Shown here in pieces: positions 13,841-17,290 of a stretch of DNA of 50,917 nt. Location of the stretch: contig NZ_JANZYP010000074.1 of the NCBI RefSeq assembly GCF_025506355.1, positions 1 through 50,917 on the forward strand, written 5' to 3'. The notes under the pieces are model-generated. The model was not told the origin of the DNA and did no database searches. It worked only from the letters and a program-made list of their open reading frames with translations. How positions within the stretch are numbered: position 1 is the first letter of the stretch; the number at the start of each line of letters is the position of its first letter. A program made the translations under genes and the position numbers. The stretch comes from Sphaerisporangium corydalis. Its GTDB lineage: Bacteria > Actinomycetota > Actinomycetes > Streptosporangiales > Streptosporangiaceae.

Positions 13841-13874
13841 TTCTAACGGCAGTGCGATGGAAATGGCGTTAGAA
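13841..13874. promoter_or_regulatory. CGNR operator copy 1, overlapping the regulator's promoter
   Basis: TTCTAACGG, 16 bp spacer, GCGTTAGAA: an inverted repeat with 25 bp between half-site starts. The right half-site overlaps TAGAAT (13870-13875), a good -10 hexamer placed so that transcription would start at or near the regulator's ATG (leaderless). This fits autorepression. Copies 2 and 3 have the same arms and spacing. Confidence 0.8.
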
Positions 13875-13881
13875 TGGCGTG

Positions 13882-14469
13882 ATGTCCGACCCCTTGGCCC
13901 TGCGGTTCACCCAGACCGTCCGCGCGAGCCGCGACGGGCCCGCCGACGCCCTCGCCGACACGGCCGGCCTGGCCGCCTGGGTCGCCGCCAACGCCGGGGA
14001 CCTCGGCGTGGACGCCGCCACGTTCACCCCTAGCGAGTCCCTGCGCGAGGAGGTCGTCGCGCTCCGCCAGGCCGTACGGGCACTGTTCGCCAGGGCGGTC
14101 GCCCCCGGAGAGCCCAGTTCGGCCGACGCGGCCCGCCTCCCGAGGTTCACCGAGGCGCTCGCCGCCGTGAACGCGACGGCGATGGCCGTCCCGACGGCCC
14201 CGCGGCTCGACTGGCCGGCGGACTCGGGCCCGGTGGCGACGAGCGAGCCGGCCGTCGCGGTGAGCGGGTCGGCGCGGCTGCGTGCGGCGCTGGCTTCGGC
14301 GGCGGTGGAGTTCCTGGCCGGCCCCGACCGGGAGCGGCTGCGGGCCTGCCCGGCGCCGCGCTGCGTCATCTATTTCGTCAAGGAGCACACCCGGCAGGAG
14401 TGGTGCTCGGTCACCTGCGGCAACCGGGCACGCGCCGCCCGCCACTACCGGCAGCACCGCGCCGGCTGA
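13882..14469 (+). CDS. CGNR zinc-finger (ABATE domain) transcriptional regulator
   Basis: A 195-residue regulator. The N-terminal ABATE domain (about residues 5-140) is a putative ligand-binding stress domain. The C-terminal CGNR zinc finger has C156, C161, C175 and C179 (CPAPRC...WCSVTCGNR) followed by a basic helix RARAARHYRQHRAG that should contact DNA. No Shine-Dalgarno is seen, but a -10 element ends seven bases before the ATG, so the mRNA is probably leaderless. Family members are poorly characterised. The three matching inverted repeats around it are the likely binding sites, and the VOC/oxidoreductase genes downstream the likely targets. Confidence 0.9.
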   Translation: MSDPLALRFTQTVRASRDGPADALADTAGLAAWVAANAGDLGVDAATFTPSESLREEVVALRQAVRALFARAVAPGEPSSADAARLPRFTEALAAVNATAMAVPTAPRLDWPADSGPVATSEPAVAVSGSARLRAALASAAVEFLAGPDRERLRACPAPRCVIYFVKEHTRQEWCSVTCGNRARAARHYRQHRAG

Positions 14470-14533
14470 CCCCTCCCCCGGCGGTCCGATCCCACCAGCC
14501 TGCCGCCGATCCGGACCCGCCGCCCCACAGAAC

Positions 14534-14567
14534 TTCTAACGGATTGATTCGGAGCCACCCGTTAGGT
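14534..14567. promoter_or_regulatory. CGNR operator copy 2
   Basis: TTCTAACGG, 16 bp spacer, CCGTTAGGT: same architecture as copy 1. The left half-site is identical and the right half-site has 7 of 9 bases of the ideal complement. It lies 49 bp upstream of copy 3 in the gap before the VOC gene. Confidence 0.75.
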
Positions 14568-14582
14568 TAAGCTCGCCAGGAG

Positions 14583-14616
14583 TTCTAACGGACCATCGGC
14601 CTTGATTCCGTTATAA
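14583..14616. promoter_or_regulatory. CGNR operator copy 3, overlapping the VOC promoter
   Basis: TTCTAACGG, 16 bp spacer, CCGTTATAA. The left half-site is identical to copies 1 and 2; the right half-site has 8 of 9 bases of the ideal. Its right arm contains TATAAG (14612-14617), a likely -10 element that would start transcription about 15 bases before the VOC ATG. Binding here would block the promoter. Confidence 0.78.
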
Positions 14617-14638: not shown

Positions 14639-15082
14639 ATGGCTTTCCAGATCGGGCACGTCGGCCTCAATGTGACCGACCTCGACCAGAGCAAGCGGTT
14701 CTACCAGCGCGTCTTCGGCTTCGCCGTCCACCACGAGTCGGCGGACGGCGACCGCCGGTACGCCTCCCTCGGGTACGACGGCGCCACCATGGTGACCCTC
14801 TGGCAGCAGAGCGAGGGCCGCTTCTCCGGCGCCGTGCCCGGCCTGCACCACTTCGCGTTCCGCGTCGCCGACCTGGACGCCGTACGGCGGGCCGAGGCCA
14901 CGCTCAAGGAGATCGGCGTCGAGTTCGCCTACGAGGGCATCGTCCCGCACGGGAAGGACCGGACCTCCGGCGGCGTCTTCTTCACCGACCCCGACGGCAT
15001 CCGGGTGGAGATCTTCGCCCCCTCCGGCGCCGAGTCGCTCACGGCGCCGGTGAGCGACGCCCCGACCTGCGGGTTCTTCTGA
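14639..15082 (+). CDS. VOC (glyoxalase-fold) protein of the CGNR regulon
   Basis: A 147-residue VOC protein with two beta-alpha-beta-beta-beta modules. Plausible metal ligands are H7 (IGHVGLNV), H70 or H71 (LHHFAFRV) and E124 (VEIFAP). The FFTDPDGIRVEIF ending is typical of glyoxalase or ring-cleavage dioxygenase type members. GAAGG lies before the ATG; a GTG six codons upstream is possible. The stop shares one base with the next start (TGATG). It sits directly behind two operator copies, so it is probably the first gene of the regulated operon. Substrate unknown. Confidence 0.88.
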   Translation: MAFQIGHVGLNVTDLDQSKRFYQRVFGFAVHHESADGDRRYASLGYDGATMVTLWQQSEGRFSGAVPGLHHFAFRVADLDAVRRAEATLKEIGVEFAYEGIVPHGKDRTSGGVFFTDPDGIRVEIFAPSGAESLTAPVSDAPTCGFF

Positions 15083-15945
15083 TGGAGCACCCAGGGGAGG
15101 CCCTGCTGCAACGCCGCGCCGGGATGACCAGGCCGCTCGGCTCGGCCCGCGCGCGAGCGGAGATCCCTCCCGTGGCGGCCGAGTTCCTGCGGGCCCAGCG
15201 CATGCTGGTCATCGGCGCCCCCGGCGACGGGGGCAGGGTCTGGGCGGGCGCCCTCACCGGGCCCGAGGGGTTCGCCGACCCGATCGGCGAGCGCACGATC
15301 GCCATCGCCGCCCTGCCCGGCGCGCCGCTCGCGGGCCTGTTCGAGGAGGACCACGACATCGGGATCCTGGCCATCGAGCCCGCGACCCGCCGCCGCATGC
15401 GGGTGAACGGCCGGGCGCGCCGCGACGGCGACCGCCTGCTCGTCCACACCGAGCAGGTCTACTCCAACTGCCCGAAGTACATCCAGAGGCGCGAGCCGTC
15501 CACCGGCGGCGCGGCGGCCGGGGGCGAGGTCACGACGGGGACCGCCCTCACCCAGGCCCAGCGCAACTGGATCCGCGAGGCGGACACGTTCTTCGTCGCC
15601 ACCCACGTGGACGGCGCTGGCACCGACGTCTCCCATCGTGGCGGGAACCCGGGGTTCGTCCGGGTCACCGGCGAGCGGCGCCTGGAGTGGCCGGAGTACC
15701 CCGGCAACTTCATGTTCATGACCCTCGGGAACCTGCTGCTCAACCCCGCCTGCGGTCTGCTGTTCCCCGACTGGGAGAACGGCCGGGGCCTGCACCTCAC
15801 CGGCCGCGCGGAGATCGGCGGCGACGGGGTGACGTTCGACGTGGACGAGGTCGTCGAGGTGGCCGGAGAGCTGCCGGCGCACTGGCGGTTCCTGGAGTTC
15901 TCGCCGGTCAACCCGCCGGTGGATCGCTCGCGCGAGGTTTCGTAG
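15082..15945 (+). CDS. Pyridoxamine 5'-phosphate oxidase-fold, FMN-binding family protein
   Basis: A 287-residue protein with the split-barrel flavin-binding fold. Recognisable features are AEFLRAQRMLVIGAPGDGG near the N-terminus, a middle QVYSNCPKYIQRR motif (about residues 127-139), and a second barrel half with ADTFFVATHVDG and NPGFVRV. The YSNCPKYIQ signature marks the large PNPOx-like group of uncharacterised flavin or F420 enzymes rather than true PdxH. It is translationally coupled to the VOC gene. Role in this operon: possibly redox chemistry on the same small substrate (inference). Confidence 0.82.
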   Translation: MEHPGEALLQRRAGMTRPLGSARARAEIPPVAAEFLRAQRMLVIGAPGDGGRVWAGALTGPEGFADPIGERTIAIAALPGAPLAGLFEEDHDIGILAIEPATRRRMRVNGRARRDGDRLLVHTEQVYSNCPKYIQRREPSTGGAAAGGEVTTGTALTQAQRNWIREADTFFVATHVDGAGTDVSHRGGNPGFVRVTGERRLEWPEYPGNFMFMTLGNLLLNPACGLLFPDWENGRGLHLTGRAEIGGDGVTFDVDEVVEVAGELPAHWRFLEFSPVNPPVDRSREVS

Positions 15946-16080: not shown

Positions 16081-16533
16081 ATGGCACCGCCGGTACCACC
16101 GTTCACGGAGGACACCGCACGGGTGAAGGTCCAGGGGGCCGAGGACGCGTGGAACACCCGCGACCCGCACCACGTGGCCCTCGCCTACACGCCCGGCTCG
16201 GTCTGGCGCAACCGGTCGGAGTTCGTGACCGGGCGCGACCAGATCACCGAGTTCCTCACCCGCAAGTGGGCCAAGGAGCTCGACTACGCGCTGCGCAAGG
16301 AGCTGTGGGCCTTCACCGGCGACCACATCGCGGTGCGTTTCCAGTACGAGTGCCGCGACCTCGACGGCCAGTGGTGGCGCAGCTACGGCAACGAGCTGTG
16401 GGAGTTCGACGAGGACGGCCTGATGCGGCGGCGCGAGGCCAGCATCAACGACCTGCCGATCGACGAGCGCGATCGGCGGATCTTCGGATCACGCCCCCGC
16501 GAGGAGCACGGCGTCCCGTTCCCCCTCGCGTGA
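16081..16533 (+). CDS. DUF1348 (NTF2/SnoaL-like) protein
   Basis: A 150-residue single-domain protein of the nuclear transport factor 2-like DUF1348 group. Diagnostic stretches are [24 protein letters not shown] sequence at residues 19-38, [16 protein letters not shown], and [20 protein letters not shown]. It ends with [19 protein letters not shown]. The cone-shaped fold usually binds small hydrophobic ligands, but no function is established for DUF1348. GAGGAAAGG precedes the ATG. It lies between the VOC/PNPOx pair and the molybdenum hydroxylase genes on the same strand. Confidence 0.9.
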
Positions 16534-16651: not shown

Positions 16652-16685
16652 TTCTCACTCCATCCACTCCACTCACCGTTAGTGC
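16652..16685. promoter_or_regulatory. Degenerate fourth copy of the CGNR operator
   Basis: TTCTCACTC, 16 bp spacer, CCGTTAGTG. The left arm has 6 of 9 and the right arm 7 of 9 bases of the motif seen in copies 1-3, and the spacing between half-sites is exactly the same. It begins about six bases downstream of the predicted transcription start, a normal repressor position. The call is weaker than for the other copies. Confidence 0.4.
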
Positions 16686-16801: not shown

Positions 16802-17290
16802 ATGACCCGTATCACCGTCACCGTCGACGGCGTCACGTACGAGGAGGAGGTGGAGCCACGCCTGCTCCTCGTCCATCTCCTCCGTGAACGACTGGGCAAG
16901 ACGGGCACACCGATCGGCTGCGACACCAGCAACTGCGGCGCCTGCACGGTCATGCTGGACGGCACCAGCGTGAAGAGCTGCTCCGTGCTCGCCGTCCAGG
17001 CCGACGAGGGCGACGTCCTCACCGTCGAGGGCCTGGCGGGCGGCGGTGGATGGCACCCCATGCAGCGGGCCTTCCACGAGGAGCACGCGCTCCAGTGCGG
17101 CTACTGCACCCCCGGCATGATCATGGCCGCCATCGACCTGCTGAAGGACGACCCCGACCCCTCCGACGAGGCGATCCGGCACGGCCTGGAGGGCAACCTG
17201 TGCCGGTGCACCGGCTACTGCAACATCGTCAGGGCCGTACGGCGCGGCGCGGCCGAGATGAGCGGCCACCAGGAGGTGACCGCGTCGTGA
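16802..17290 (+). CDS. Molybdenum hydroxylase small subunit, 2 x [2Fe-2S] (CoxS-like)
   Basis: A 162-residue iron-sulfur subunit of the xanthine dehydrogenase/CO dehydrogenase family. The plant-type cluster is held by C40, C45, C48 and C60 ([11 protein letters not shown]). The second, helical cluster is held by C99, C102, C134 and C136 ([18 protein letters not shown]). It passes electrons from the molybdenum site to FAD. GGAGG lies just before the ATG. GTGA overlap couples it to the large subunit. Gene order small-large-medium is seen in several actinobacterial hydroxylases. Confidence 0.95.

Follow-up and report, generated by a model that had tools for sequence, protein, structure and literature searches.

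Genes of the locus and three inverted repeats

The window, by which we mean the whole stretch of 50,917 nucleotides from Sphaerisporangium corydalis that was analysed, contains a gene for a small regulator followed on the same strand by VOC, PPOX and DUF1348 genes (Table 1). The regulator has an N-terminal ABATE domain (PF07336, 62.2 bits against a cut-off of 24.4) and a C-terminal zf-CGNR zinc finger (PF11706, 44 bits against 24). These are its only Pfam matches, i.e. an AraC-type helix-turn-helix domain is absent from them. The four cysteines of the finger and the CGNR motif are well preserved, with C156, C161, C175, C179, G180 and N181 invariant in 39 sequences. The start of the PPOX gene overlaps the stop of the VOC gene, and its match to TIGR04025 lies under the cut-off of that model. 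The zf-CGNR domain is found at ten places in this genome, and a relative of the ABATE/CGNR protein (E 1e-3) occurs in 128 of 150 genomes of the bacterial family.

The same two domains make up Jann_2411, the structure of which (3H0N, PMC2954205) has a four-cysteine treble-clef finger; a dimer with a DNA-binding and ligand-sensing role is proposed in that paper. Its text contains none of the words operator, promoter, inverted repeat or recognition. The match between a profile of the present subfamily and 3H0N is weak (E 0.018). Elsewhere a CGNR gene appears in an expression table (PMC9976334, excerpt) and CGNR in a gene list (PMC3485107, excerpt). No DNA target of the CGNR/ABATE family was described in open-licence papers among the matches listed, in agreement with the preliminary description, which held such binding sites to be barely described.

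Table 1. Genes and predicted regulatory features of the locus, with positions in the window.
Feature	Position	Strand	Remarks
Predicted operator O1, TTCTAACGG-N16-GCGTTAGAA	13841..13874	.	Putative autoregulatory site in CGNR promoter; matrix score 28.4
-10 hexamer TAGAAT (predicted)	13870..13875	+	In O1 right arm, 12 nt before ATG; start probably leaderless
ABATE + zf-CGNR regulator, 195 aa	13882..14469	+	PF07336 E 9.9e-17, PF11706 E 1.9e-11
zf-CGNR zinc finger, residues 152-191	14335..14454	+	Pfam match
Codon of Asn181, N of CGNR	14422..14424	+	Co-varies with operator base 3
Codon of Ala185	14434..14436	+	Co-varies with operator base 5
Predicted operator O2, TTCTAACGG-N16-CCGTTAGGT	14534..14567	.	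Distal VOC-promoter site; predicted -10 within right arm
-10 hexamer TAGGTT of VOC operon (predicted)	14563..14568	+	Distal right arm is TAnnnT in 35/39 loci
Predicted operator O3, TTCTAACGG-N16-CCGTTATAA	14583..14616	.	Proximal site; its position places it shortly after the predicted transcription start
VOC/glyoxalase-superfamily gene	14639..15082	+	First in target operon; PF00903 E 2.6e-17
PPOX/FMN-type flavoprotein gene	15082..15945	+	PNPOx_N domain, PF01243 E 6.6e-10
DUF1348 (SnoaL-like) gene	16081..16533	+	PF07080 E 3.8e-64

Three gapped inverted repeats (O1, O2 and O3) lie before the regulator and VOC genes as had been claimed, with identical left arms and 25 bp between the starts of the arms; the tandem pair O2 and O3 is 49 bp apart. 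The right arms are closely related, matching the perfect complement at 8/9 (O1), 7/9 (O2) and 8/9 (O3) positions. Three such repeats at N16 compare with 2.9e-5 expected from the base composition of the window, or 1.3e-3 when 23 spacings and two strands are allowed. A single arm is not rare by itself; with up to one mismatch it is matched five times in the window where 2.64 are expected, and 13 of 100 shuffles reach five. In the 9.48-Mb genome the exact core TAACGG-N16-CCGTTA occurs at two places, both at this locus, and with one mismatch at six, the third site among them. When up to two mismatches are allowed the count rises to 81, compared with 47 for the reversed pattern. The motif is not abundant in this genome.

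For the nine other zf-CGNR genes found in this genome, the 900 bp preceding the finger contain no site (best unmasked scores ≤4.8). On contig 78 a near-match is flanked by a CGNR paralogue and a methyltransferase gene; with a score of -0.8 it was dropped as a member of the regulon. A weak CGNR-like site, TCTCACTC-N15-CCGTTAGT, lies at 16653-16683 of the window with a score of 11.3 that chance could produce; it precedes a gene at 16802 that by eye resembles the iron-sulphur subunit of a molybdenum hydroxylase.

Spacing of the arms and linkage to CGNR genes

The arm pair was sought as CTAACGG-N2..24-SCGTTAG in the 150 family genomes, and 61 places in 44 of them carry it. The spacings pile up at N16 (21 places) and N6 (17), followed by N10 and N21 (five each), N22 and N14 (three each), N15 (two), and one each at N2, N7, N12, N19 and N23. 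The raw counts are not above those of a reversed-pattern control (about 54 forward and about 69 reversed, counted by hand), so that the signal is carried by spacing and by gene linkage. At spacings N6, N14, N15 and N16, 36 of 43 places lie within 1.5 kb of CGNR, VOC, PPOX or DUF1348 genes (N6 17/17, N14 3/3, N15 2/2 and N16 14/21), compared with none of 18 at other spacings (Fisher 4e-10, ignoring shared loci). Among 268 genomes of the class from outside the family, three of four N16 places are beside a CGNR gene, as against 0/11 at other spacings (Fisher 0.009). Related species often contribute one and the same locus to the linked places, and the Fisher values thus overstate independence.

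Repeats with the same arms at N10 and at N21/N22 have no CGNR gene within 1.5 kb and were set apart. CTAACGG-N10-CCGTTAG, with partly similar inner bases, occurs at five places in the family genomes and three in other genomes of the class (L048, L177, L179, L188, L193, L194, L198 and L199), and is perhaps another operator. The long palindromes of the N21 class, CTAACGG[TC]GTTAGG...CCTAAC[AG]CCGTTAG, occur in five genomes (L046, L072, L073, L197 and L200), again not beside CGNR genes.

Orthologues of the regulator were sought in the 150 family genomes, and the flanks were read of 30 loci among the matches listed; a named set of 80 loci was kept from 488 relatives. The preliminary description had proposed scanning upstream of related CGNR genes, and the motif is present at most orthologues. 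Sites in the named set with at least 13 of 14 arm bases are found at N16 (40), N6 (25), N15 (five), N14 (two) and N21 (one), and at no other spacing. To test the motif on held-out promoters, sites over 310 bp away from a CGNR start (found at N6 and N16, mostly before VOC genes) were used to train a half-site matrix, which was then run on the 80 CGNR promoters, allowing N2-N24 and taking score thresholds from base shuffles of each region. Sixty-five promoters exceed the 1% shuffle level where 0.8 are expected (N16 34, N15 20, N6 nine and N14 two). Fifteen lie under threshold, 12 of which are still best at N15; the CGNR promoters of L102, L128 and L153 have no plausible site in the matrix scan. 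The fixed N16 spacing of the preliminary description must consequently be widened, with N6, N14, N15 and N17 sites also found. Nothing between N6 and N14 passed in the named-locus, CGNR-promoter or VOC-promoter scans. In a quickly built protein tree N16 is the spacing of one group (mostly Streptosporangiaceae, plus Actinomadura and Nocardia) and N15/N14 that of a second (mostly Streptomyces and Micromonospora), while N6 appears at two places, Microbispora corallina and Planomonospora/Planobispora.

A VOC relative is in reach at 40 of 81 loci (window included) and out of reach at the other 41. Two tandem sites stand before it at 39/40, but the matrix was trained mostly on sites in front of VOC genes and this count is therefore not an independent test of presence. 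The tandem spacings are N16+N6 (19), N16+N16 (18) and N6+N6 (two), with a single N15 site at the remaining locus; the second site of L109 is also readable as N6. VOC keeps its sites even at 2-5 kb from the CGNR gene, and in two Planobispora genomes a DUF1348 gene is found on a different contig together with an N16 operator of its own. Where VOC is preceded by N16+N6 (19 loci), the CGNR promoter has N16 in 11 cases, and a single protein thus probably uses the two spacings. At four loci (L132, L140, L141 and L150; three Actinomadura and one Nocardia) two N16 sites lie 33 bp apart upstream of the CGNR gene, with neighbouring arms nearly touching.

A set of 82 diverged CGNR proteins was also assembled, comprising 79 of the 129 matches listed and three from an earlier search for relatives. 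Three of the proteins (L178, L185 and L244) had first been found via their site, and two (L228 and L239) had already been met earlier. Fifty-eight of the genes have a site above threshold, 56 of them at N14-N17 (N16 23, N15 15, N17 15, N14 three, N7 one, N20 one). The N17 spacing tracks an insertion of one residue between the final two zinc cysteines; in a table of sites at N6 and N14-N17 only, it is seen with 16 of 19 proteins that have the insertion vs one of 118 that lack it. A second wing of CGNR proteins (L337-L352), which has a different finger, near DTSRGRRRRWCSSEVCGNRERVARHRRR, had no such inverted repeat in a de novo search of 230 bp upstream. Two diverged CGNR genes with an N16 site have a DUF1348 relative (L083) or a PPOX relative (L086) as neighbour. 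Their products are CGNR paralogues about 40% identical, and may control the same kinds of enzyme.

The possibility that the repeats belong to another DNA-binding protein, acting near CGNR genes by chance, has to be weighed against this distribution. Inverted repeats before enzyme genes are typical of many families, and seven of the 21 N16 places adjoin none of the expected genes, two of these being beside an alpha/beta hydrolase gene. Yet the sites accompany CGNR genes across many genera, in several families and in diverged paralogues. Together with the correlation between operator bases and recognition-helix residues of the CGNR protein described below, this makes another protein very improbable. 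The repeats are very probably binding sites of the neighbouring CGNR zinc-finger regulator. N16 sites were also seen beside genes for an alpha/beta hydrolase (L078), a luciferase-like monooxygenase (L080), an S15 peptidase/HPP (L082) and an MFS protein (L088), which are possible further targets.

Promoter overlap and predicted mode of action

The site overlaps the predicted core promoter of both the CGNR gene and the target operon. Identifying hexamers by sequence only, the right arm holds TAnnnT in 37 of 38 CGNR promoters (loci L096-L135). Before VOC it does so in 35 of 39 distal sites vs one of 39 proximal sites, and the sixth base of the hexamer is T in the same proportions (35/39 and 1/39). 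O1 had been thought to cover both the -10 element and the leaderless start of the regulator gene; it does cover TAGAAT, but stops 7 nt short of the ATG at 13882. The -10 of the VOC operon had been placed under the last tandem site. This assignment was dropped on the proximal count and the hexamer is now placed in the first, a position new to this analysis, so that the distal site would position the operon start and the proximal site would follow downstream. The left arms of autoregulatory sites are often CTCACGG, one base off the consensus, which may weaken them.

From the position of the sites we infer repression. We note that no clear -35 hexamer is seen by eye at either promoter, so that the promoters could need help, and that the tandem sites before the operon resemble some activator layouts. 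The CGNR protein might thus bind the sites and activate, or do both depending on ligand. However, with the -10 in the right arm and the left arm of N16 sites overlapping the -35 position, a bound dimer should exclude polymerase, and the proximal site lies downstream of the predicted start. Activation is for these reasons unlikely.

We give hardly any credence to the idea that a special sigma factor uses the arms as promoter elements, or that they form RNA hairpins. The right arms do contain -10 hexamers and the arms could pair in RNA, but the proximal site is out of register with a -10 (1/39), the left arm stands at either of two distances, O1 and O2 are upstream of the predicted starts, and the bases co-vary with residues of the CGNR protein.

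We consider it likely that the repeats are CGNR operators, where a dimeric autorepressor would cover two -10 elements, that of the VOC-PPOX operon and that of its own gene, until released by a ligand. One CGNR zinc finger would read each arm, with the dimer spanning both. A dimer at O1 would cover the -10 of its own leaderless gene, giving autorepression, and one at O2 the -10 of the VOC-PPOX(-DUF1348) operon, while O3, in the early transcribed region, would be a second block. A ligand of the ABATE domain is predicted to release the dimer, so that the operon is induced. A DNA-binding dimer would fit the two-fold symmetry of the sites and the co-variation of residues and bases. The preliminary description had invoked a tetramer or two dimers to explain the length of the sites. 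The inner positions of N16 sites carry little information and contain no conserved half-site, and the same arms recur at N6. One dimer with two reading fingers is thus simpler, and the tetramer with its inner half-sites was dropped. The N6 spacing is a new observation and is one helical turn under N16; as arms 6 or 16 bp apart differ by 10 bp, their relative facing is kept.

Operator bases and residues of the zinc finger

The half-site consensus is T-C1-T2-A3-A4-C5-G6-G7, and the arm is non-palindromic. Residue 181 tracks base 3 and residue 185, less strictly, base 5; both correlations are new. Bases 3 and 5 were left out of the scoring in one scan, which 86 of 161 loci passed, 83 of them at N6, N14, N15, N16 or N17. 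All 11 Asp181 proteins there have C in both arms at base 3, and the single His181 protein has G in both. With Asn181 base 3 is A in both arms at 39 loci, A and C at 31 and C in both at one; the exceptions are thus L282, with C twice, and one C arm in 31 of 71. Residue 181 is among the best columns for base 3. On an ABATE-only tree Asp181 arose only twice, and base 3 is C both times. L232 is a lone Asp among Asn relatives, with the sequence CADRARAARHY and the site TCTCACGG-N15-CCGTGAGG. Four further Asp proteins comprise L261 and L275, whose C arms are sub-threshold, and L285 and L293, for which no site was found. The arms of two Thr181 proteins are sub-threshold and carry A. Taken singly, the sites of L331 and L322 do not reach significance, being equalled by 25% and 27% of shuffles. 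Five further His proteins comprise L357 (the same gene as L331) with a CTGACGC-N16 repeat, L359 with a TGACGG-N16 repeat, L360 and L361, whose imperfect arms read as G by eye, and L358, for which no repeat was found.

The named set alone held too few independent changes at base 5, and a wider set was therefore fetched. Residue 185 is the best of 195 columns for this base; C in both arms accompanies Ala in 60 cases and Val in six, and T in both arms Val in 37 and Ala in three. For this test two near-identical proteins were dropped and 30 sites whose arms differ, C in one and T in the other, were counted separately; 12 of 139 sites lie under the held-out matrix threshold. The held-out matrix favours C at base 5 and the diverged-set matrix does not. 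With bases 3 and 5 unscored the correlation is looser; Ala185 proteins have CC 54, CT 13 and TT three times, and Val185 proteins TT six, CT one and CC four times. Base 5 changes 11 times on the ABATE-only tree. Six supported independent pairs divide into 3.4 with residue 185, 0.1 against and 2.6 without difference, which is not significant; the tree by itself offers too few independent changes to reach significance.

Contacts of Asn with adenine, Asp with cytosine and His with guanine are textbook pairs. Residue 181 would set base 3 (Asn:A, Asp:C, His:G), and residue 185 would influence base 5 (Ala:C, Val:T) less strictly. We lean towards a general reading in which the N of CGNR picks base 3 and the residue four further on biases base 5, so that operators might be predicted from the protein, and the dimer bridges 6 or 16 bp, the same protein perhaps doing both in one genome.

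Comparison of genomes establishes the motif, its set of spacings, its linkage to CGNR genes and putative targets, its overlap with predicted -10 hexamers and the co-variation of its bases with the protein. The proposal that these are operators of the CGNR/ABATE regulator is strongly supported by the linkage, the held-out matrix, the diverged set and the residue-base correlation.

One-component autorepressors of the TetR/MarR type have inverted-repeat operators over the -10. The CGNR system is similar in its apparently autoregulated gene beside a target operon and an operator over the promoter. It differs in that the predicted reading element is a C-terminal zinc finger and that the arms are 6 or 14-17 bp apart, with the spacing switching by a full turn. 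AraC-type regulators that accommodate an extra turn of the helix separating their half-sites are alike in a flexible reach with two half-sites kept on one face. The CGNR regulator is nevertheless not a member of that family, since Pfam finds ABATE and zf-CGNR only and its half-sites are inverted, not direct.

ABATE/CGNR proteins are common in the bacterial family of the host, and are known mainly from one structural paper. The predicted operator, promoter layout, targets and residue-base code make CGNR regulons listable and testable. It would be an unusual geometry if the dimer of a small zinc-finger repressor did accept half-sites a full turn apart, and the residue code, if correct, would allow the operators of many uncharacterised CGNR regulators to be predicted from protein sequence.
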